Below are positions 3,101-59,570 of a DNA stretch of 64,000 nt, piece by piece. Source of the stretch: Magnetococcales bacterium WMHbinv6 (GTDB lineage Bacteria > Pseudomonadota > Magnetococcia > Magnetococcales > Magnetaquicoccaceae); NCBI GenBank assembly GCA_002753135.1, contig PDZV01000014.1, positions 1-64,000 on the forward strand, read 5' to 3'. A program made the position numbers and the translations under genes. The notes under the pieces were generated by a model, which saw only the letters and a list, made by a program, of their open reading frames with translations, did no database searches and was not told where the DNA came from. Positions within the stretch are counted from its first letter, which is position 1, and each line of letters begins with the position of its first letter.

Positions 3101-4825
3101 ATGAACAAGGGTAAACGTTCGCTGCTGTGGCGCAAGGCGCTGATGGCCAGTGTGCTGTTCTTGGCAACTCTGCCAGGCGACGGACAGGCATTTTCTCTGG
3201 GCGAATTGCAGATGCAAAGTCGGCCAGGCCAGCCGTTTCAGGCACAGGCACCGGTCAAACTGAACAAGGATGAGCGGATTGCCTCGGTTGCGATTGGCAG
3301 TGCGGCGGATTATGCCCTCTTGAATTTGCCCTATTCGCCTTCGGTGGAAGGGTTGAGCGTGCAGGCCAAGGAGCAATCGGGCAATACGGTGGTTCAGTTG
3401 CAGGGGCGGGCAGCGATTGCCGAGGATGATTTTTTTATTCTGCTGCGCATCTCCTCTAATCAAAATACTTTTTATCCTTTCTTCCGTCTGCACTCTGCCT
3501 CCGCTGCCCAGCAGGAGAATAAAAGGAGTGGTGGCAAAGAAGAGAGTGTGGCCAAAAAAGTTGAAGAAAAGCCTCTGATCGATCCTGCGGCAGGAGAAAA
3601 GAGCTTTGCCGATAAAGAGAAAAAGGGCAAAGAATACATTGCCGACAAACCGGAAGCGGTCGGCAAAAAAGAGGAAAAAGTGGTCGCCAAAAGTGTGCCG
3701 CCGCGCGAGGCAGACACCACCACGGCAGCAATGATCTCCGATCCGCCCCCGATGGAGAGTGGCACCAGCAAGGTGAGCCTTCCCCCCCCGGAACGGAAAA
3801 AAGTGGAGCGGAAAGAGCCCCCCGCCGAGGCAACTGGTCGGGCAGCAGAACCTGCCGGAGATAAGGCCACGCGATATGGTCCGGTTCGAGAGGGTGAAAA
3901 TCTGACCGAAATTGTTCATCGTCTTAAGCTGGTGCAGAGTCCAAGCTCTTTTTTTCAAGCTGTTGTCGCTATCTGGCAGAAAAATCCCGACCACTTTATT
4001 CGCAATAACATGAATGGTCTGAAGTCTGGTGTCATGTTGCTGATTCCCTCGCAGCAGGAGATTGCCCGCATCGGGGTGGGCGAAGCGAGAAAATTGCGTT
4101 TAAGCCACGCCATGGAATGGAAAAAACCGCTGGAAGGTCAACAAGATATGGCCAAGGTGGATTTTTCTGCGGCAGAGGGTGGGCCGGAAGCCTCCTTATT
4201 GTCTGGAGGTGCGCCGACAGCACAGAGCGAGAGCATGGTTGCCGGCGGTGTAAAACGATCTGCTGGCGCTGGGGTGGGTGGCGAAACGGAGGAGTTGCGG
4301 GCCATTCTACTGCAATTGCAGGTGATTACCAGAGTATTGGAGAGCAATCAAGCCCAGCAGGAACGTTTGGAGCAGCGTATTTCCACTCTGGAGCAGGCAC
4401 GCAAGGAGTGGGAGTATCTTCGGGAGCGCATCAACAGTTTGGAGAACGCCAAGGGGGGGTGGGTGGTCCGGAAAGCAGCCGACACGGCGGAGAGTGTTTC
4501 TCCGGTCGGCAGTTGGTTGTCGCAACTGGATATGTTGGGTACAGGGGCGATGGCCTTGGTGGCAATCTCTCTGCTTGGCTTGCTGGCCTTGTCGGTGGGG
4601 CGGCGGATGAATCAGCAGCAGCGCATGAAAAATTTACAATCGTTGCTCTCTGAGACCAATCGGCAGGATCCTCCTCTGTTGCGTGATACGCTGTCGGTAC
4701 CGGCAGAAGGTGGCGGCAAAGCGGACGGTTTCGGCAAAAAGGGCAGTCCGTCTGGGGGAGAAAGAAACGATTCGGCTGCGATTGTTGCCCAACAGTTGGA
4801 GTCCATGACCGGCAGCAAGCCGTAG
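3101..4825 (+). CDS. FimV-like protein B with C-terminal membrane anchor
   Basis: Paralogue of the gene just upstream (90-nt gap). The ATG at 3101 has GGAG six bases upstream. The signal peptide ends around GQA-FSLGEL (residue 30), then comes the FimV N-terminal domain (about 31-125). A long charged linker rich in Lys/Glu/Pro follows, then the LysM-like module from about 259 (YGPVREGENL) to 335. After a coiled coil (about 395-445) a single hydrophobic helix (about 482-503, MALVAISLLGLLALSVG) precedes a short basic and low-complexity tail, giving the FimV topology of periplasmic N-terminus and one anchor. The large cytoplasmic TPR domain of Pseudomonas FimV is absent. Role in pilus or polarity functions is inferred from family only; no pilus genes are adjacent. 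Confidence 0.75.
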   Translation: MNKGKRSLLWRKALMASVLFLATLPGDGQAFSLGELQMQSRPGQPFQAQAPVKLNKDERIASVAIGSAADYALLNLPYSPSVEGLSVQAKEQSGNTVVQLQGRAAIAEDDFFILLRISSNQNTFYPFFRLHSASAAQQENKRSGGKEESVAKKVEEKPLIDPAAGEKSFADKEKKGKEYIADKPEAVGKKEEKVVAKSVPPREADTTTAAMISDPPPMESGTSKVSLPPPERKKVERKEPPAEATGRAAEPAGDKATRYGPVREGENLTEIVHRLKLVQSPSSFFQAVVAIWQKNPDHFIRNNMNGLKSGVMLLIPSQQEIARIGVGEARKLRLSHAMEWKKPLEGQQDMAKVDFSAAEGGPEASLLSGGAPTAQSESMVAGGVKRSAGAGVGGETEELRAILLQLQVITRVLESNQAQQERLEQRISTLEQARKEWEYLRERINSLENAKGGWVVRKAADTAESVSPVGSWLSQLDMLGTGAMALVAISLLGLLALSVGRRMNQQQRMKNLQSLLSETNRQDPPLLRDTLSVPAEGGGKADGFGKKGSPSGGERNDSAAIVAQQLESMTGSKP

Positions 4826-4857
4826 CAGCGGACTGTTATTGACACCATCTGCCGTAG

Positions 4858-4896
4858 AACGGGCCGTCGGACAAGATTTGGCGGCCCGTTTCTTTT
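4858..4896. terminator. Strong terminator between fimV-like B and the ABC exporter
   Basis: AACGGGCCG and CGGCCCGTT pair perfectly over 9 bp around a 15-nt loop and are followed by TCTTTT. It lies between convergent genes, 33 nt after the fimV-like B stop, and may also serve the minus-strand ABC gene. Confidence 0.8.
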
Positions 4897-4954
4897 GGGC
4901 CGACTTTATGGGGTGGACAGCGTAAACAGGTACAGGTTTGATGGCAGCATGGTA

Positions 4955-6802
4955 TTACTGGGTGAGAAAACCGCCGGATTGTCGTTCCCAGAGGCGGGCA
5001 TAGGCCCCGTTGCGGGCCAGCAGTTGTTCATGGCTGCCCTCTTCGAGAATGGTCCCTTTTTCCAGATAGAGAATACGATCCATGCTGGTGATGGTGGACA
5101 AGCGATGGGCGATGGCGATGACCGTCCGACCGTGCATCAGTTGCCAGAGTGTGGACTGGATAACGTGTTCGGTCTCCGAATCCAGAGAGGAGGTGGCTTC
5201 GTCAAGGATCAGGATGGGGGCATCTTTGAGAAAGGCGCGGGCAATGGCGATCCGTTGTTTTTCGCCGCCCGAGAGGCGCACCCCCTGTTCACCGACGATG
5301 GTGGCAAAGCCCATGGCGCGACGTTGAATAAATTCGCTGCAGTGGGCGTGCCGGGCCACCTCCTGCAGTTGTTCCTCGGAAGTCTGCTGGCGGGCATAGC
5401 TCATATTATCGCCGATACTGCGGTGGAACATGCCGGGCAGTTGCGGTACTTCGGCAATGGCCTGATTCAGGGATTCCAGCGTGACCAGGGCAATATCCTG
5501 CCCGTCGATGCAAATGGAACCTTCCTGCGGGATGAATTGTCGACGCAATAGCTTGATGAAGGTGCTTTTGCCAGCCCCTGAAGGGCCAACCAGACCAATT
5601 TTTTCGCCGGGGCGGATGGTGAGGTGAAAATTTTGCAGGACGGTGTGGCCATCCGGATAACGAAAAGTCAATTGTTTGATGGCGATACCGCCACCGTCTA
5701 CCTGCAGCGGTTTGGCCTGGGGGTGATTGACAATTTCGTGCTTTTGGCTGATCAACTCCAAGGCATCTGCGACCACACCGAGTTGTTCGTAAAATTCCAG
5801 CAACCGTTGTGAAAGACCCCAGACATTGATAAAGACGATGGTTGCCAAAGAAAAAACCAGCATAAAATCGCCAACGGTCATGGTGCCGTCCACCACTTGG
5901 CCGATGGCCATGCCGATCAGGGCCAGTTGACTGAGCAGGGTGGTGGAGTACAAAAAAAGGTGCAGAAGGGTAAAATAGCCACGCACCCGCACGGAAGCCT
6001 GCCGCTCCCGCATCAGGCGTTCACCGATAATTCTGCGTTCAAACAGTTGCCTGCCAAAGGCGCGCACCAGTTCGATATTGCTGATGCTGTCGATCATGTA
6101 GCCCATGGAGGAGGAAGATTCGTTGGAGAAGGCGTGTGACAAGGCCTGACTGCGGCGCACGAACAGGGCAGAGACGCCGAGAAAGGAGAAGGCCCAGGCG
6201 ATCATCACCAGGGCCATGGTCGGTGAACCTGGCCAGAGCAGCAGGGTGCCCTGGATCATGATGGTAATGATGCGCACCGTATCGTGCAGCATGATGTTGA
6301 TCAGGGTCAGACAGCTGTTGCCGGTTTGTTTGATTTTTTGCCCCAGCTTGCCGGCAAAATTTTCTTGAAAATAGCGTGGCGAGTGCCAAAGCAGATAAGA
6401 AAAAAGGGTGTTTTGTACCAGATAGCGGAAGCGGGGTGAGGTGAAGGTTTCCATGGCCTGATAGGCACGGTTGCACAGGGCAGAGCCGAGCCAGAGGGCC
6501 CCGATCACCTGAAACCAGTACCAGATCATCTCCGGCGACTGGCCTGGTTGGTAATGGCTCATGGTATCGATCAGTTGCCGCATGGCGGGCGGTTCATAGC
6601 CCATCAAACCGATGGAGAGGGCGGCAATGCTGACCATCAACAGCGCCTGCAACGGGAAGCGGCGACTGAGAAAAAACCAGATAAAACGGATCGGTGTGGT
6701 GGGAATCGGTCGGTCGGGTCGACGGTGATCGAACAAGGTATCCAGGAGAGGATCGTTGTCGGTACCTGGATCAACGGAGGGTATGGGAGCGGGTAATGTC
6801 AT
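4955..6802 (-). CDS. ABC exporter, fused permease and ATPase (MsbA/HlyB superfamily)
   Basis: Half-size ABC exporter of 615 residues that would work as a dimer in the inner membrane. The membrane domain covers about residues 45-330. The ATPase domain has Walker A GPSGAGKST (about 404-412), a Q-loop in AEVPQLPG, the signature LSGGEKQRIAIARAF (about 507-521), Walker B ILILDEATSSLD and the switch histidine in IAIAHRLST. The substrate cannot be read from sequence; lipid, peptide and drug export are all possible. There is no C39 peptidase domain and no HlyD or TolC partner nearby, so it is not an obvious type I secretion ATPase for the RTX-like protein downstream. The gene is divergent from ftsY, so the region 6803-7033 should hold promoters for both. 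Confidence 0.85.
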   Translation of the reverse strand: MTLPAPIPSVDPGTDNDPLLDTLFDHRRPDRPIPTTPIRFIWFFLSRRFPLQALLMVSIAALSIGLMGYEPPAMRQLIDTMSHYQPGQSPEMIWYWFQVIGALWLGSALCNRAYQAMETFTSPRFRYLVQNTLFSYLLWHSPRYFQENFAGKLGQKIKQTGNSCLTLINIMLHDTVRIITIMIQGTLLLWPGSPTMALVMIAWAFSFLGVSALFVRRSQALSHAFSNESSSSMGYMIDSISNIELVRAFGRQLFERRIIGERLMRERQASVRVRGYFTLLHLFLYSTTLLSQLALIGMAIGQVVDGTMTVGDFMLVFSLATIVFINVWGLSQRLLEFYEQLGVVADALELISQKHEIVNHPQAKPLQVDGGGIAIKQLTFRYPDGHTVLQNFHLTIRPGEKIGLVGPSGAGKSTFIKLLRRQFIPQEGSICIDGQDIALVTLESLNQAIAEVPQLPGMFHRSIGDNMSYARQQTSEEQLQEVARHAHCSEFIQRRAMGFATIVGEQGVRLSGGEKQRIAIARAFLKDAPILILDEATSSLDSETEHVIQSTLWQLMHGRTVIAIAHRLSTITSMDRILYLEKGTILEEGSHEQLLARNGAYARLWERQSGGFLTQ

Positions 6803-53321: not shown

Positions 53322-53905
53322 AAAGGCGGGGGCGGGTGATTGTTTTTGGCTGTTCGACCGGGGGGGTGCGAGCCATGCAGACGGCTTTTGGTCTTTTGCC
53401 GGTCGATTATCCCTGGCCGATTGTCGGTGTCTGCCATCTCCATGCGCAGGGAAGATGGTTGATGCCGGAGGTGTTGGCACGAGGCTGCCAGCTCAAAGTT
53501 CAGGGGGCGGTGGAAAAAGAACGGTTGCAGGGGGGGCATCTCTATCTGGCACCACCCGGTTACCATTTGCTGCTGGAACGGGATCGGAGCTGTTCCTTGA
53601 CGGTGGATGAAAAGGTCAACGGCAGCCGACCGGCAATCGATCCGCTGTTTGAATCGGCAGCCGACAGTCTGGGCGATCAAAGTATTGCCGTCATTCTCAG
53701 CGGTGCCAACCGGGATGGGGCAGAGGGTGCCTATCGGATTGCGGCCCAAGGCGGGCTGTGTGTGATTCAGGATCCAAACACGGCAGAAGCAGAAGAGATG
53801 CCGCGTGCGGCCTTGGCCGTTGTGCCTGCCGCGCAACGGGTTGTGGTGCGTTTGGAAGAGATAGGACCATTTTTGCAGACGATGGGAGTTGTGACCAATG
53901 GCTGA
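53318..53905 (+). CDS. cheB: CheB-type methylesterase, catalytic domain only
   Basis: CheB esterase domain of 195 residues with no receiver domain. GCSTGGVRAMQ has the catalytic Ser at about 13, HLHAQGRWLMPEVLA gives the His, and LSGANRDGAEGAY has the Asp. LAPPGYHLLLE and AAQGGLCVIQDP are also conserved. Without a REC domain it cannot be regulated by direct phosphorylation; control must come through the kinase-associated receivers or be constitutive. Overlaps the next gene by 8 nt. Confidence 0.88.
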   Translation: MKRRGRVIVFGCSTGGVRAMQTAFGLLPVDYPWPIVGVCHLHAQGRWLMPEVLARGCQLKVQGAVEKERLQGGHLYLAPPGYHLLLERDRSCSLTVDEKVNGSRPAIDPLFESAADSLGDQSIAVILSGANRDGAEGAYRIAAQGGLCVIQDPNTAEAEEMPRAALAVVPAAQRVVVRLEEIGPFLQTMGVVTNG

Positions 53906-56078
53906 GCCGTTACCGAAAATTTTGGTGGTAGATGACATTGCAGCCAATCTGGTGGCCATGCGCACCTTGTTGAGCAAACTGCATGCAGAGGTTGTGGTTG
54001 CCACTTCCGGCAATGATGCCTTGGCCTTGGCTCTGGATCATGATTTGGCCCTGGTCTTGTTGGATATCAATATGCCAGGGATGGATGGTTTTGAGGTGGC
54101 AGAGTGGCTGCGGGGCGAAGATCAGACGCGGGATGTGCCGATCATTTTTGTGACGGCGGCCTATAAGGATGATGCCCATCGCCTGCAGGGGTATCATGTG
54201 GGGGCCATCGATTATATCGAAAAACCGGTCGATTGGCGGATTTTGCGTTCCAAGGTGTCGGTGTTGCTGGAATTGTATCGGCGCAAGCAAGAGTTGAAAC
54301 AGGCCAATCACATCATGAGCGAACGCTCAATCATGTTGCAGACCACCCTGGATACGATTCGCCATGGCTTGGGTATGTTTGATGCTCAACTCTGTTTGCA
54401 GGCCTGGAATGAGCGCTTTTTCGATTATCCGGGCTATCCGGCCAAACTGGCTACCAGGGGAACGCCGCTGGCAAAATTTATTCGCCTGCACGAAAAAAGG
54501 GGCGAAATGGTGCGCAAGGTGGCCGATCGCCTGGCCGACCAGCGGCAGGCGTGGCGTTTTGACTGGTCTTTGGCCAGTGGGCGCACCATGGATGTCAAGA
54601 CCAATCCCATGCCGGGCGGGGGCGTGGTGATTGCCTTGACCGATGTGACCGATCAGCGCCGCGATGAGGCCGCCGTGCGCGAATATGCCAGTCGCTTGGC
54701 CGCCGTCAACGCCACCGCCCATGATGCCATTGTCACCATTGACCACCATGGCAAGGTGCGGGAGTGGAATCCGGCAGCAGAGAGCATGTTCGGTTTCACC
54801 GCCCAGGAGATGCGGGGCCACTCCCTGCAGCGGATTATGCCGGAGCGCTTTCAGCAGTGGCATGAGCAGGGTCTGTTGCGTTATGTACAGTCCAGGGAGT
54901 CAGAGGTGGTCGGCAAGACCATGGAGCGAATTGGTTTGCGCCGTGATGGTCAGGAGTTTCCGATAGAACTCTCTCTGGCTGCCTGGGGGGAGCCGAAGCA
55001 ACCCTTTTTTACCGCCATCATGCGTGATGTGACCGAGCGGAAAATGCAGGAAGTGTTGTTGGTGCAGATGAACCAGCGTTTGAGCGACTCCCTGGCGGAG
55101 TTGCAAAAACATCACCAGGAGCTGTTGCAACTGAGCCGGATGAATGAACGGCTGCAATCCTGTGCCAATATGGAGGAGGCGGTCGCGGTTCTGCAAGAGG
55201 CGCTGGCGACTCTGTTCCAAGGATTGGCTGGGGAGTTGCTGTTGCAAGAAGGAGAGGGAGAGCAGGTGACACGCGCCGGACACTGGGGCGGCAATAAGGA
55301 TGACTCTTTTCCCCCCTCCAGTTGCACGGTGGCGGCAGAATGGCAACAGGCAGCGTCAGGCCGCGAAGGGTGTCGTTTGCACTGGGAAAATATTCAGGGG
55401 GGGTGTTGTTGTCTGCCCTTGTGGGAACAAGGCAAGGTGTTCGGTTTTCTCCATTTACAGCAACGGTCGGCAAGGGCGGATGACTCTATTGATCGTCATT
55501 CTGGCCTGATGTCCACGGTGCGCGAATCGGTTGAGCTGTCTCTGGCCAATTTGCGCATGCGCGAGCGCTTAAAAGATCAAGCGGTACGCGATGTGTTGAC
55601 CGGCTTGTTCAACCGGCGCTATCTGGATGAGACGCTGCCACGGGAGTTAAGCCGGGCAGCGCGCAGCCAGCAGCCGTTGGCGGTGGCCATGGTCGATGTG
55701 GACCATTTCAAACGTTTCAATGACACCTTTGGTCACGATGCGGGAGATGCGGTTTTGCGCGAGGTGGCGAGGCTGTTACGGCAGCGCTTGCGCAAGAGTG
55801 ATATTGCCTGCCGCTATGGTGGCGAAGAGATGACGGTGGTCTTGCCCGGTTTGGAGGTGATGGCCGCCCGCGAACGGATGGAGATGATCCGCGAGGAGAT
55901 CAAAGCCTTGCAGGTGGAACATGCCGGTGTTGCTCTCGGCACCATCACCGTCTCCATAGGGATTGCCGACTATCCCCGACACGGCAACCAGATGGAAGAG
56001 ATTTTACGCAAGGCCGACGCGGCCTTGTATCAGGCCAAACAGGGCGGACGTAACCGGGTGATTGTTTCTGAAGGTTGA
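53898..56078 (+). CDS. Diguanylate cyclase response regulator (REC-PAS-PAS-GAF-GGDEF)
   Basis: Protein of 726 residues. A receiver (about 8-120) has the phospho-acceptor Asp at about 56 (VLLDINMPGMDG) and IEKPVD. It is followed by a divergent PAS (about 145-250), a PAS domain (about 265-385, GKVREWNPAAESMFG), a GAF-like segment (about 415-545) and a GGDEF domain (about 560-724). The catalytic loop reads YGGEEM (about 640-645), with Met in place of the usual Phe. RKSD five residues upstream is a canonical RxxD inhibitory site, so product feedback is likely. No EAL domain is present. As last gene of the kinase-cheR-cheB operon it is the probable output, making cyclic di-GMP in response to the hybrid kinase. 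Confidence 0.9.
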   Translation: MAEPLPKILVVDDIAANLVAMRTLLSKLHAEVVVATSGNDALALALDHDLALVLLDINMPGMDGFEVAEWLRGEDQTRDVPIIFVTAAYKDDAHRLQGYHVGAIDYIEKPVDWRILRSKVSVLLELYRRKQELKQANHIMSERSIMLQTTLDTIRHGLGMFDAQLCLQAWNERFFDYPGYPAKLATRGTPLAKFIRLHEKRGEMVRKVADRLADQRQAWRFDWSLASGRTMDVKTNPMPGGGVVIALTDVTDQRRDEAAVREYASRLAAVNATAHDAIVTIDHHGKVREWNPAAESMFGFTAQEMRGHSLQRIMPERFQQWHEQGLLRYVQSRESEVVGKTMERIGLRRDGQEFPIELSLAAWGEPKQPFFTAIMRDVTERKMQEVLLVQMNQRLSDSLAELQKHHQELLQLSRMNERLQSCANMEEAVAVLQEALATLFQGLAGELLLQEGEGEQVTRAGHWGGNKDDSFPPSSCTVAAEWQQAASGREGCRLHWENIQGGCCCLPLWEQGKVFGFLHLQQRSARADDSIDRHSGLMSTVRESVELSLANLRMRERLKDQAVRDVLTGLFNRRYLDETLPRELSRAARSQQPLAVAMVDVDHFKRFNDTFGHDAGDAVLREVARLLRQRLRKSDIACRYGGEEMTVVLPGLEVMAARERMEMIREEIKALQVEHAGVALGTITVSIGIADYPRHGNQMEEILRKADAALYQAKQGGRNRVIVSEG

Positions 56079-56093
56079 GCGCTGGGGTGCTGC

Positions 56094-56219
56094 TTCGGCC
56101 CTCTTCCCGAATGGACCAGCGACAAAATTGCCAAGGCCGAGTTGCCAACCCTGGAGGAGTGGAGTCTCCGCATTCTGGACGCTCCGACTCTGGAGAGCGT
56201 GCTGGCGGATCCGTCTTGA
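56094..56219 (+). pseudogene. 3' remnant of an Rpn-family nuclease gene
   Basis: Forty-two codons reading GPLPEWTSDKIAKAELPTLE, then EWSLRILDAPTLESVLADPS and a stop, nearly identical to the C-terminus of the intact gene at 56368-57381. No start or upstream portion exists: the sequence begins 16 nt after the stop of the diguanylate cyclase gene. It is the coding part of a 193-bp direct repeat. Confidence 0.85.
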
Positions 56220-56286
56220 TAGCTGGGATATTCCGGTGTTGGGGAGAATTTGCACAGGGTACCCTATATGATTCGCCACGGCAGAG
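56094..56286 (+). repeat. 193-bp direct repeat, left copy
   Basis: Matches 57256-57448 without indels (constant 1162-bp offset) and with only a few base substitutions. It includes the last 42 codons of the Rpn reading frame and 67 bp of 3' flank, ending in GATTCGCCACGGCAGAG. Confidence 0.9.
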
Positions 56287-56367
56287 TCATGCGGGTAACT
56301 GTTTTCAGAATTGGTGAACCAAGAATTTCCCATAAATTTCTGTCACCTTTAGCGAGATGCCTGACCT

Positions 56368-57381
56368 ATGGCAGAGGCTGCCCATACCTTCGATTCGATC
56401 TACCATCGCCTTTTCGCTTACCCGGAGATGGTGGCCGATCTGCTGCAGAATTTTTTGGACGCCGATCTTCTGGCAGATATTGATCCATCCCGGATGCGGC
56501 GGTTGAACAGCAAATTTACCGCCCGGAAAGGCCAGAGGCGGCGTGGGGATGTGGTATGGGAGATTCCCATTCTCTCTGGAGGCAGTCTGTTTTTGTTGGT
56601 GTTGTTGGAGTTTCAGTCTGAAGCAGACGAATGGATGGTGCTGCGTCTGGCTGTCTATACCGGTCTGCTCTACCAGCAACTGGTGGATGAGCGCAAATTG
56701 AAACCGTCGGATGGCTTGCCAGCCGTGTTGCCTGTGGTCATTTTTAATGGCGAACCGCGATGGGGTGCCGCAACCACGCTGCGGGAGCTGATTCGTTTAC
56801 CCTCTGGATCTCCGTTATGGAAATACCAACCGGAGATGCGATACTATGTGATTGACGAGGGGCGTTTTGCCGAGGAGACGTTGAAGGGTCTGCACTCTCT
56901 GACGGCAATTTTTTTCCGCATCGGACATCCAGGCACTCCGGCGTCGATTCTGGAGGCCAGTCGCGATTTGGTGGCCTGGTTTGCCAAACACCCGGATGGA
57001 CCTCCGGTGAAGCGGTTGTTCCGTGAATTGCTGACCGTTGGCTTGGAACGTCTCAGCGGTCCGCACTCCCTGCCGCGCATTCCCGAAGAACTTGAGGAGG
57101 TGGTGAACATGTTGGCGACACACGTTGAAAAATGGTCGAGAGATATTGAGCAGAAGGGGATACTGATCGGCGAACAGAAAGGCCGCCAGGAAGGTCGCCA
57201 GGAAGGCAGACAGGAAGAAGGCGCATCCCTGTTGGCTCGTCTCCTCCAACGCCGTTTCGGCCCTCTTCCCGAATGGGCCAGCGACAAAATTGCCAAGGCC
57301 GAGTTGTCAACCCTGGAGGAGTGGAGTCTCCGCATTCTGGACGCTCCGACTCTGGAGAGCGTGCTGGCGGATCCGTCTTGA
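56368..57381 (+). CDS. Rpn family recombination-promoting nuclease / putative transposase
   Basis: Protein of 337 residues of the Rpn (YhgA-like, PDDEXK) group. The N-terminus HTFDSIYHRLFAYPEMVADLL is typical. Predicted catalytic residues are Asp61 (RRGDVVWEIP) and Glu81-x-Gln83 (LLEFQSE), together with VLPVVIFNGEPRW. A helical region (about 270-290) contains KGRQEGRQEGRQEE, a short repeat that varies in Rpn proteins, before a C-terminal DUF4351-like segment (RRFGPLPEWASDKIAKAEL and onward). Rpn proteins are DNA endonucleases linked to RecA-independent recombination or abortive phage defence. The gene is bracketed by the 193-bp direct repeats and lies next to a Mrr-type restriction gene. Confidence 0.85.
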   Translation: MAEAAHTFDSIYHRLFAYPEMVADLLQNFLDADLLADIDPSRMRRLNSKFTARKGQRRRGDVVWEIPILSGGSLFLLVLLEFQSEADEWMVLRLAVYTGLLYQQLVDERKLKPSDGLPAVLPVVIFNGEPRWGAATTLRELIRLPSGSPLWKYQPEMRYYVIDEGRFAEETLKGLHSLTAIFFRIGHPGTPASILEASRDLVAWFAKHPDGPPVKRLFRELLTVGLERLSGPHSLPRIPEELEEVVNMLATHVEKWSRDIEQKGILIGEQKGRQEGRQEGRQEEGASLLARLLQRRFGPLPEWASDKIAKAELSTLEEWSLRILDAPTLESVLADPS

Positions 57382-57448
57382 TAGCTGGGATATTCCGGTG
57401 TTGGGGAGAATTAGCACAGGGTACCCTATATGATTCGCCACGGCAGAG
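57256..57448 (+). repeat. 193-bp direct repeat, right copy
   Basis: Second copy, made of the last 42 codons of the intact Rpn gene and its 3' flank; see 56094-56286. The copies diverge immediately after GGCAGAG. Confidence 0.9.
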
Positions 57449-57449
57449 C

Positions 57450-57537
57450 AATTAGGGTGAGTCTCCCTGGAATTCACCTGGAATTCAGTAATTAGGGTGA
57501 GTCTCCCTGGAATTCCCCCACCCTGGAATTCCCCCGT
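57450..57537. repeat. Short REP-like tandem repeats
   Basis: A 26-nt unit beginning AATTAGGGTGAGTCTCCCTG and ending GAATTC occurs at 57450-57475 and 57490-57515 (offset 40). Extra CCTGGAATTC fragments lie at about 57476-57486 and 57522-57531. The unit resembles REP sequences that often flank RAYT-type transposases; no such transposase is present here. Confidence 0.7.
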
Positions 57538-57574
57538 TCCTGGGAGGGGTGCTGGATGGTTGCGCTTACATCCG

Positions 57575-58435
57575 TCATAGAGCTTCAAACCATGCTGTAT
57601 CAATGCTGATACGTTCGACGCGTTCGGTTTTTACACCAAGCTCCAACTCCTTCAATTTTTCTGCAAGTTCAATGCCATCAATGAGGTCAATTGGTGGCGC
57701 ACCGTCTCTGGTTGCTTCCTTTACGGCAGGAGTAGTGAAAGTGCCTGTTGTAATGAGTAATCCCTTGTCAGCACGGCCAACCATCGCACCGCGAAAATCA
57801 CGGACCTCAGCGGCAGAAACTGAGTTTTTGTAACGCTTGCATTGAAAATAAACATGAAAGCTCATAAGACCATGGATACGGGCAATACCCTTTCCATCAA
57901 TTCCTCCATCGCCTGTGCGGCCTGTCACCTCGACATGAATAAAGCCTGATTCGCGCAGGACTCGCTGAATCAATCGTTCAAAACCTGCTGGTTCAAGTTT
58001 TTGAGTGAGAACAACGGAAAGTTTGTCTTTCCACCCATCCTCTTCAGATAATTCCCGTACAGTATCGATAGACGCACCTTGTTTCGGCGCGTCTTGCCTG
58101 TCAATCTTGTCGAGGGCGCGGACAAAACGAACGATTTCATCAGAATCGACGGTTTCAAATGTCTTAGCTTTCTCTGTCAGAGACCAAACACCACGTCTTG
58201 AATTTTCAACCAATCCGAATTTTTTTAAATACGTTCGCGCCCAAGCGAGACGATACCCGATTTCCGTTTGCATGCCCCTGTTTGGATCATGGAGTTGGGC
58301 CAGAAGTTTTTCTGATAATCCGATCAACTCCACGGTCTTGGTGAAAATCTCCTTAACAGACCCTGAACCACCAAGTTCCCGTAGTGCCGCGAGAAGCGGA
58401 TTCATCAGATTGTCATAGGTTGGGAGCTTATTCAT
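57575..58435 (-). CDS. mrr: Mrr-type restriction endonuclease
   Basis: Type IV restriction-like nuclease of 286 residues, expected to cut methylated or otherwise modified DNA. The N-terminal winged-helix Mrr_N domain (KLPTYDNLMNPLLAALREL) is followed by a catalytic PD-(D/E)XK domain with TGRTGDGGIDGKGI (about 177) and YFQCKRYKNSVSA (about 198), giving the D-x(n)-Q-x-K active site. I chose the ATG at 58435 because E. coli Mrr aligns from PTYD; an in-frame GTG at 58444 is possible. Its codon usage looks less G+C-rich at third positions than flanking housekeeping genes, consistent with acquisition. Confidence 0.9.
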   Translation of the reverse strand: MNKLPTYDNLMNPLLAALRELGGSGSVKEIFTKTVELIGLSEKLLAQLHDPNRGMQTEIGYRLAWARTYLKKFGLVENSRRGVWSLTEKAKTFETVDSDEIVRFVRALDKIDRQDAPKQGASIDTVRELSEEDGWKDKLSVVLTQKLEPAGFERLIQRVLRESGFIHVEVTGRTGDGGIDGKGIARIHGLMSFHVYFQCKRYKNSVSAAEVRDFRGAMVGRADKGLLITTGTFTTPAVKEATRDGAPPIDLIDGIELAEKLKELELGVKTERVERISIDTAWFEAL

Positions 58436-58586
58436 AGGTATCACATTGATTGATTGTTAATGCAAAATTCCGGTGGCACCCTGCTGAATTTGAAAGACAA
58501 AAACGAACTCCACCCGTGACAACGTGGCCTCAATGGCGCGTTGCAATATTATCAACAGCCCGTTGATCCTGGCGCTTTTCCAAGGC

Positions 58587-59570
58587 TTATTGAATCCCCA
58601 TCTCCTTGGAAACGCGGCTCAGCCAATCGTTTTTCTGGGTGAAGTTGACCAGTTTTTCCTGTTTGATCAGTTCGCGGGCGATCCATTCGCTGGAGCCGAG
58701 GCCGTCGATCAGGCCGAGTTTTACCGCCTCTTCGCCGGTCCAGATCAACCCTTCAAACAGATCTGCCTGCTCGTTTTTTAGTCGGTCGCCGCGTCCTTTG
58801 CGGACGGCTTCGATAAACTGCTGGTGGATTTTGTTCAGCACACTTTGCATATGCTCTTTTTCGCTGCTGTCTACCGGTCCGAACGGATTGAGGAAGGCTT
58901 TGTGTTTGCCGGAGGTGAGCAGGCGGCTCTCCACGCCCAGTTTGTTCAAGGTCTCCTGAAAGCCAAATCCTTGCAGAATTACACCGATGGAGCCGACCAG
59001 GCTGGCTTGGTCGGCATAGATCAATGGGGCGGCGGCGGCTACATAATAGCCGCCGGAGGCGCAGAGATCTTCCAGGGCGGCGTAAAAGGGTTTGTTTGGA
59101 AAACGGTGCCGCAGGCGCAGCATCTCGTCATAGACTTGACCGGCCTGGACCGGGCTGCCGCCCGGACTGTTGATGCGCACGATCACCCCGGCACTGTTGG
59201 GATCTGCAAAGGCTTTGCTCAACCCCTTGATGATATTTTCTGCACTGGTGTTGGTGGTGGCCATGATCGGGCCGCGAATATCAACCACGGCGGTAAATTT
59301 TTTGTGCGGCATGGTTTTGAGTTCGACATGCCGCCATTGGTCGGCGGTGCTGATCCCCAACAGGGCCAGAAGATAGAGAACCAAAAAGAGCCGGAACCAG
59401 TTTTTGCCGCGACGCACCCGTTTTTGCTCGTTCAAATGTTCGGCCATTATCGCCTGCAAGGCGGCCCGCTCTTCCCTTCGGCTGGCCTCGGCCCGTTCCA
59501 GCCAGGCCAAAGCGATGGGTTCAACGGAAGCGTGCTGCGCGGCATCGGATGACTCGGGAGGGGTGAGCAT
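58587..59570 (-). CDS. sppA: Signal peptide peptidase SppA, short form
   Basis: Peptidase S49 family protein of 327 residues that degrades signal peptides in the inner membrane. One membrane helix lies at about 62-80. The catalytic Ser is in LCASGGYYVAAAAPLIYAD (about Ser172), and the general-base Lys is in LTSGKHKAFLNPFG (about Lys224). SPGGSPVQAGQVYDEM is the oxyanion-side motif. This is the 36-kDa form, unlike the duplicated 67-kDa SppA of E. coli. Confidence 0.92.
   Translation of the reverse strand: MLTPPESSDAAQHASVEPIALAWLERAEASRREERAALQAIMAEHLNEQKRVRRGKNWFRLFLVLYLLALLGISTADQWRHVELKTMPHKKFTAVVDIRGPIMATTNTSAENIIKGLSKAFADPNSAGVIVRINSPGGSPVQAGQVYDEMLRLRHRFPNKPFYAALEDLCASGGYYVAAAAPLIYADQASLVGSIGVILQGFGFQETLNKLGVESRLLTSGKHKAFLNPFGPVDSSEKEHMQSVLNKIHQQFIEAVRKGRGDRLKNEQADLFEGLIWTGEEAVKLGLIDGLGSSEWIARELIKQEKLVNFTQKNDWLSRVSKEMGIQ

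Follow-up and report, generated by a model that had tools for sequence, protein, structure and literature searches.

The 193-bp repeat under study lies between a diguanylate cyclase gene and an sppA-like gene in the window (the whole stretch of 64,000 nucleotides that was analysed), with one copy ahead of an rpn gene and the other forming the 3′ end of that gene. The following features were placed at the locus:

53898-56078, + strand: response regulator-PAS-PAS-GGDEF diguanylate cyclase gene, the intact left neighbour of the insertion described below (Pfam; orthologues in the related genomes G001, G002 and G003)
56094-56286, + strand: left repeat copy, a headless and startless relic of the rpn 3′ end comprising 42 codons, the stop codon and 67 bp of flank (repeat comparison and frame check)
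56287-56367, + strand: 81-bp spacer from the relic to the rpn start codon
56368-57381, + strand: rpn (RpnL), 337 aa, with a PF04754 nuclease head and a DUF4351 tail and with D61 and E81-x-Q83 conserved (Pfam and alignment)
57095-57100, + strand: internal Shine-Dalgarno site AGGAGG
57109-57381, + strand: predicted intragenic antitoxin gene rpnS, 90 aa, starting at ATG 57109
57169-57216, + strand: four-residue repeats (G-E-Q-K / G-R-Q-E) in a long helix, the head-tail breakpoint region in relatives
57256-57448, + strand: right repeat copy, the functional rpn 3′ end with its flank (repeat comparison)
57447-57518, + strand: a 32-nt repeat (AATTAGGGTGAGTCTCCCTGGAATTC core) present twice in direct orientation, immediately 3′ of the right copy; the core has no other occurrence in the genome
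57575-58444, − strand: Mrr-type (type IV) restriction endonuclease gene, within the same insertion (family search)
58587-59570, − strand: right neighbour of the insertion, which from recognition of its sequence we take to be an sppA-like signal peptide peptidase gene

Comparison of the two copies confirmed the near-identical, indel-free repeat described in the initial annotation, with 190 of 193 positions identical, no gaps, an offset of 1162 bp and an E-value of 1e-92 for the right copy against the left one in a BLAST search of the genome. The three mismatches are located at positions 56115 (A/G), 56145 (C/T) and 56251 (T/A). A wider alignment (56089-56296 with 57251-57458) still showed 96% identity, and beyond the repeat core the likeness was gone after a few bases on both flanks. 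The left copy was also correctly described as the last 42 codons of the gene plus 3′ flank behind the cyclase gene: it begins 15 bp past the cyclase stop codon, in the reading frame of that gene, and reaches its own stop codon at 56217-56219, which is followed by 67 bp of flank.

The product of the rpn gene scored 69.5 bits with PF04754 (cut-off 21) but only 30.2 bits with NCBIfam TIGR01784, under the cut-off of 52.1, indicating a divergent member of the Rpn family. Among 21 relatives, the PD-(D/E)XK residues D61 and E81 were at least 90% conserved, and most carried Q or K two residues past E81. An AlphaFold model of the head had a mean pLDDT of 76.6 and matched PDB entries only at E-values above 0.04, several restriction endonucleases being among these weak matches. 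The model of RpnS, of moderate confidence, was helical and had no significant match in the PDB search, with 7TH0, the reference entry for the RpnS fold, not among the matches; at the sequence level, the search for matches to solved structures gave none.

Rpn genes are known as toxin-antitoxin genes, in which a C-terminal RpnS made from an internal start blocks the full-length nuclease, as shown in experiments on E. coli rpn (Zhong et al. 2023, PMC10327210), and DUF4351 is given there as the domain of separate RpnS proteins in some species. In the gene studied here, the AGGAGG motif stands 8 bases ahead of the in-frame ATG 57109, from which a 90-residue RpnS is predicted. In a set of 77 DUF4351 genes from the genus, the best internal site in the C-terminal part was stronger than in synonymous-codon shuffles (mean −8.7 vs −6.8 kcal/mol; Wilcoxon p = 1.5e-10, a value that overstates the independent evidence since these genes are kin), whereas control ATGs in the heads showed no excess over shuffles (p = 0.28). 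Rpn genes are numerous in the genus, and a predicted internal antitoxin start was found in nearly all its main head types; the internal site is present in most head families and in varied contexts (LEEVVN-M, PQEEAE-M, KKEAEK-M, LEEDKK-M and TAEELE-M). The number of GRQE repeats varies among rpn orthologues. As in the RpnL/RpnS genes-within-genes of E. coli and C. difficile, a PF04754 head with conserved catalytic residues is combined with a predicted internal start and a Shine-Dalgarno site before a helix with four-residue repeats; unlike in those systems, the full-length gene carries a DUF4351 tail. Altogether, the data point to a probable Rpn toxin-antitoxin gene (RpnL with an internal RpnS), likely encoding an anti-phage nuclease, and family membership suggests the corresponding functions for RpnL, RpnS and the Mrr-type protein.

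We then considered the coding state of the left copy. Its 46-codon frame contains no ATG, GTG or TTG, and it lacks the first half of RpnS, including its start, first helix and repeats. A start codon and ribosome site of its own with a complete RpnS, as in separate rpnS genes, were not found, nor was any promoter-like site seen for the relic or for rpn. Of its three differences from the right copy, two lie in the coding part and each changes an amino acid (Ala to Thr at an alignment-invariant position, and Ser to Pro). At both codons the right copy has the state of the nearest relatives, the change being derived in the left copy. With its start region lost and derived replacement changes acquired, the relic appears to be free of constraint. 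It differs from rpn by 1.6%, against about 20% between orthologous genes within the genus, which indicates a recent origin unless it has been refreshed by gene conversion. We infer that the left copy represents a relic of recent origin that is untranslated and probably devoid of function.

The origin of the relic could be narrowed down from its flank. The 67 bp past its stop codon occur in the genome only in the two copies, other tails in the genome matching the query only to base 142, about 16 bp past the stop, and this flank differs from the 3′ flank of the rpn orthologue of G001. These data indicate that the relic derives from this rpn gene or an adjoining twin, and not from another paralogue.

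Loci related to the rpn region were found in Candidatus Magnetaquicoccus inordinatus UR-1 and other Magnetococcales. The cyclase gene was present in only three relatives, G001, G002 and G003, all diverged by about 20% or more, which leaves the timing of the event uncertain. In G001 about 75 bp with no gene separate the cyclase gene from sppA; in G002 the gap is occupied by about 1 kb of different sequence with a small HTH gene, and in G003 other genes stand behind the cyclase gene. No tail or rpn gene was found beside the cyclase gene in any of the three, and among 18 genomes of the family only the source genome carries a tail at that place. This is the opposite of an old, inert copy shared by all relatives, the outcome that the initial annotation had set against a duplication at the locus. 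G001 holds an 86% identical mrr ORF and the rpn orthologue at separate sites away from the cyclase gene. The absence of the block from the relatives indicates that relic, rpn and mrr constitute a lineage-specific insertion between the cyclase gene and sppA.

Tandem copies and headless tails were then searched for in the genus. Full-length tandem rpn copies were found on contig C53 of the source genome (91%) and C164 of G002 (93%), and tail repeats pairing a full gene with a headless one on C1 of the source genome and C222 of G005. Within contigs, 18 headless tails were counted in the genus, some without any head and some with part of one, and in three of the 18 the head pieces were out of frame or carried internal deletions; these counts come from genome searches and retrieved stretches, with G005 and G006 covered in part, and copy numbers are lower bounds given mostly draft metagenome assemblies with tails at contig ends. 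The rpn orthologue of G001 (L061, G001:C346:17275-17347) carries directly past its stop codon a 74-bp duplicate of the RpnS start region, which spans the Shine-Dalgarno site, the ATG and the first helix. Altogether, the tandem copies, the eroded headless tails and the 74-bp duplicate indicate that partial copies of the RpnS end repeatedly arise and decay.

Two of these loci had further features. At C1 of the source genome (L037:787-2457) a complete rpn gene is followed by a 176-aa remnant of the same type as the rpn at 56368-57381, which keeps the RpnS start and ribosome site and could make RpnS alone. In G005:C33 (L135:1527-2204) a DUF4351 tail is fused in frame to the receiver domain of a response regulator that has lost its HTH part.

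Heads and tails of the family were compared separately. Two genes of a single genome, on C162 (18783) and C26 (4701) of G002, have heads 97% alike and tails only 45% alike. Conversely, the heads of the rpn at 56368-57381 and of the complete gene on C1 (L037:787-1785) are 24% alike, whereas their tails share 41 of 42 residues and 89% of their bases, and C136 and C166 of G002 combine unrelated heads with a 180-nt end that is 95% identical, the C136 head being partly masked. The switch point falls among the GRQE repeats, 3′ of the internal start. In six head families, distances in one head part tracked distances in the adjacent head part (rho 0.59-0.91) more closely than they tracked distances in the tail (−0.06 to 0.59). 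This lower head-tail correlation could come in part from faster evolution of tails, which cannot explain near-identical tails on unrelated heads. As judged from these comparisons, heads and tails have different histories: tails have been reassorted among heads that are unrelated, and the breakpoints lie at the GRQE repeats. A further pair with reassorted head and tail was seen in the source genome (C22:38946 and C76:15842).

Taken together, these observations favour, with a probability of roughly 0.65, a duplication of this same rpn gene followed by loss of most of one copy, the left 193 bp being what is left of it. In this lineage, the rpn unit and the mrr gene were inserted between the cyclase gene and sppA. 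Most likely the rpn unit was duplicated locally, in tandem, and the first copy then suffered a deletion that runs from just past the cyclase stop to the tail's RRFG codons. The direct repeat that remains could allow homologous recombination to remove the nuclease head together with the RpnS start. Of the two origins offered in the initial annotation, the former tandem rpn pair from which one copy was largely lost is well supported as a type of event by the unique 67-bp flank and by the frequency of tandem copies and headless tails in the genus, and the insertion by homologous exchange at the 3′ end of the gene is possible, with no positive evidence for it at the locus. No intermediate at the site (two full copies, or one copy with no relic) was found among the genomes searched, so the order of events was not seen directly, and the deleted part of the first copy is beyond reconstruction.

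The simplest route is duplication and subsequent loss of the first head, with homologous insertion at a resident tail ranking second. According to the latter, which we regard as possible though doubtful, the cyclase gene was already followed by a headless tail when an rpn unit, circular or linear, integrated there by homologous recombination within that tail, producing the order tail-rpn-tail. Such tails are common across the genus, no other part of rpn genes is as widely shared as the tail, tails reassort between unrelated heads, and contigs C30 and C43 of G002 show a tail ahead of a full rpn gene with 95-96% identity, the left copies reaching the contig start. However, the 67-bp flank is common to both copies alone, so the resident tail would have to be of the same rpn lineage and this path presupposes that an rpn gene once occupied the site; moreover, no relative has a lone tail there. 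A less likely origin is that a single illegitimate event brought in, behind the cyclase gene, part of an rpn tandem array located elsewhere, the left end of this piece lying inside a tail. The whole block, including a second defence gene, mrr, is missing in the relatives, tandem arrays are present elsewhere in the genus, and the in-frame fusion to the truncated response regulator gene in G005 indicates that tails do become joined to foreign genes; the present genome, however, contains no source array with the 67-bp flank, and the two genes that share it must already have been a close tandem pair.

It is improbable that the left copy works as a stand-alone tail, either as a second antitoxin similar to rpnES/ypaA of E. 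coli or as a silent gene-conversion donor that renews the rpn tail. Separate rpnS genes are known (PMC10327210), and paralogues of one genome can pair near-identical tails with unrelated heads; against this, the relic has neither a start codon nor the RpnS start region and carries replacement changes at conserved positions, and gene conversion from it was not seen, since the mismatches between relic and rpn fall exactly where the relic deviates from the family. An assembly artefact is very improbable, since the copies differ at three sites and in their flanks and the left junction lies without a repeat in a 90-kb contig, even if tails at contig ends above expectation in three of five genomes checked (G002, G003 and G004) indicate that assemblers have trouble with Rpn tails.

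Tandem rpn arrays formed by direct duplication and separate rpnS copies have already been published (PMC10327210). The local duplication proposed for our locus would be of the same type as in those arrays (PMC10327210), with only the end of one copy remaining. In rpnES (ypaA) and rpnCS of E. coli an extra rpn 3′ end likewise lies beside the parent gene from which it derives; those copies are downstream, whereas the copy described here is upstream, 42 codons long and startless, as befits a relic and unlike the separate rpnS genes of E. coli. A causal role of Rpn proteins in recombination is a suggestion of Zhong et al. (PMC10327210), who found no evidence of autonomous transposition. On its own, the relic is most likely no more than debris left by gene duplication, and its setting in the genus carries more weight. 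Headless tails might, speculatively and with rather low probability, form a reservoir of antitoxin ends that recombination at the GRQE repeats swaps onto other nuclease heads, a modular change of Rpn antitoxin specificity comparable to silent surface-antigen cassettes. Partial copies beside a full gene and exchange of one end are also features of the orphan modules of Rhs/CdiA polymorphic toxins and of silent pilin cassettes; by comparison with these, our data give no sign that exchange is regulated or programmed. Should RpnS tails be exchangeable parts, this would bear on the question of how a toxin and its antitoxin can diversify without cell death while sharing one stretch of coding DNA, and exchangeability is open to existing E. 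coli rpn assays. Neither exchange nor swapping is mentioned in the searched text of PMC10327210, one version of one paper.

As to the block as a whole, an insertion sequence or transposon was rejected because no inverted repeat pair bounding it was found in the region searched. The 26-nt repeat after the right copy was likewise discarded as a genome-wide mobile element, as it had only two matches, both at this locus. The contents of the cyclase-sppA gap vary by species (window positions 56079-58586; L059:2141-3146), from rpn and mrr to a small HTH gene with repeats or nothing, suggesting that the gap may be an insertion hotspot. Finally, the mrr orthologue of G001 (on C53) was observed between two direct copies of a coiled-coil protein gene (L062:2503-3091 and 4459-5016).
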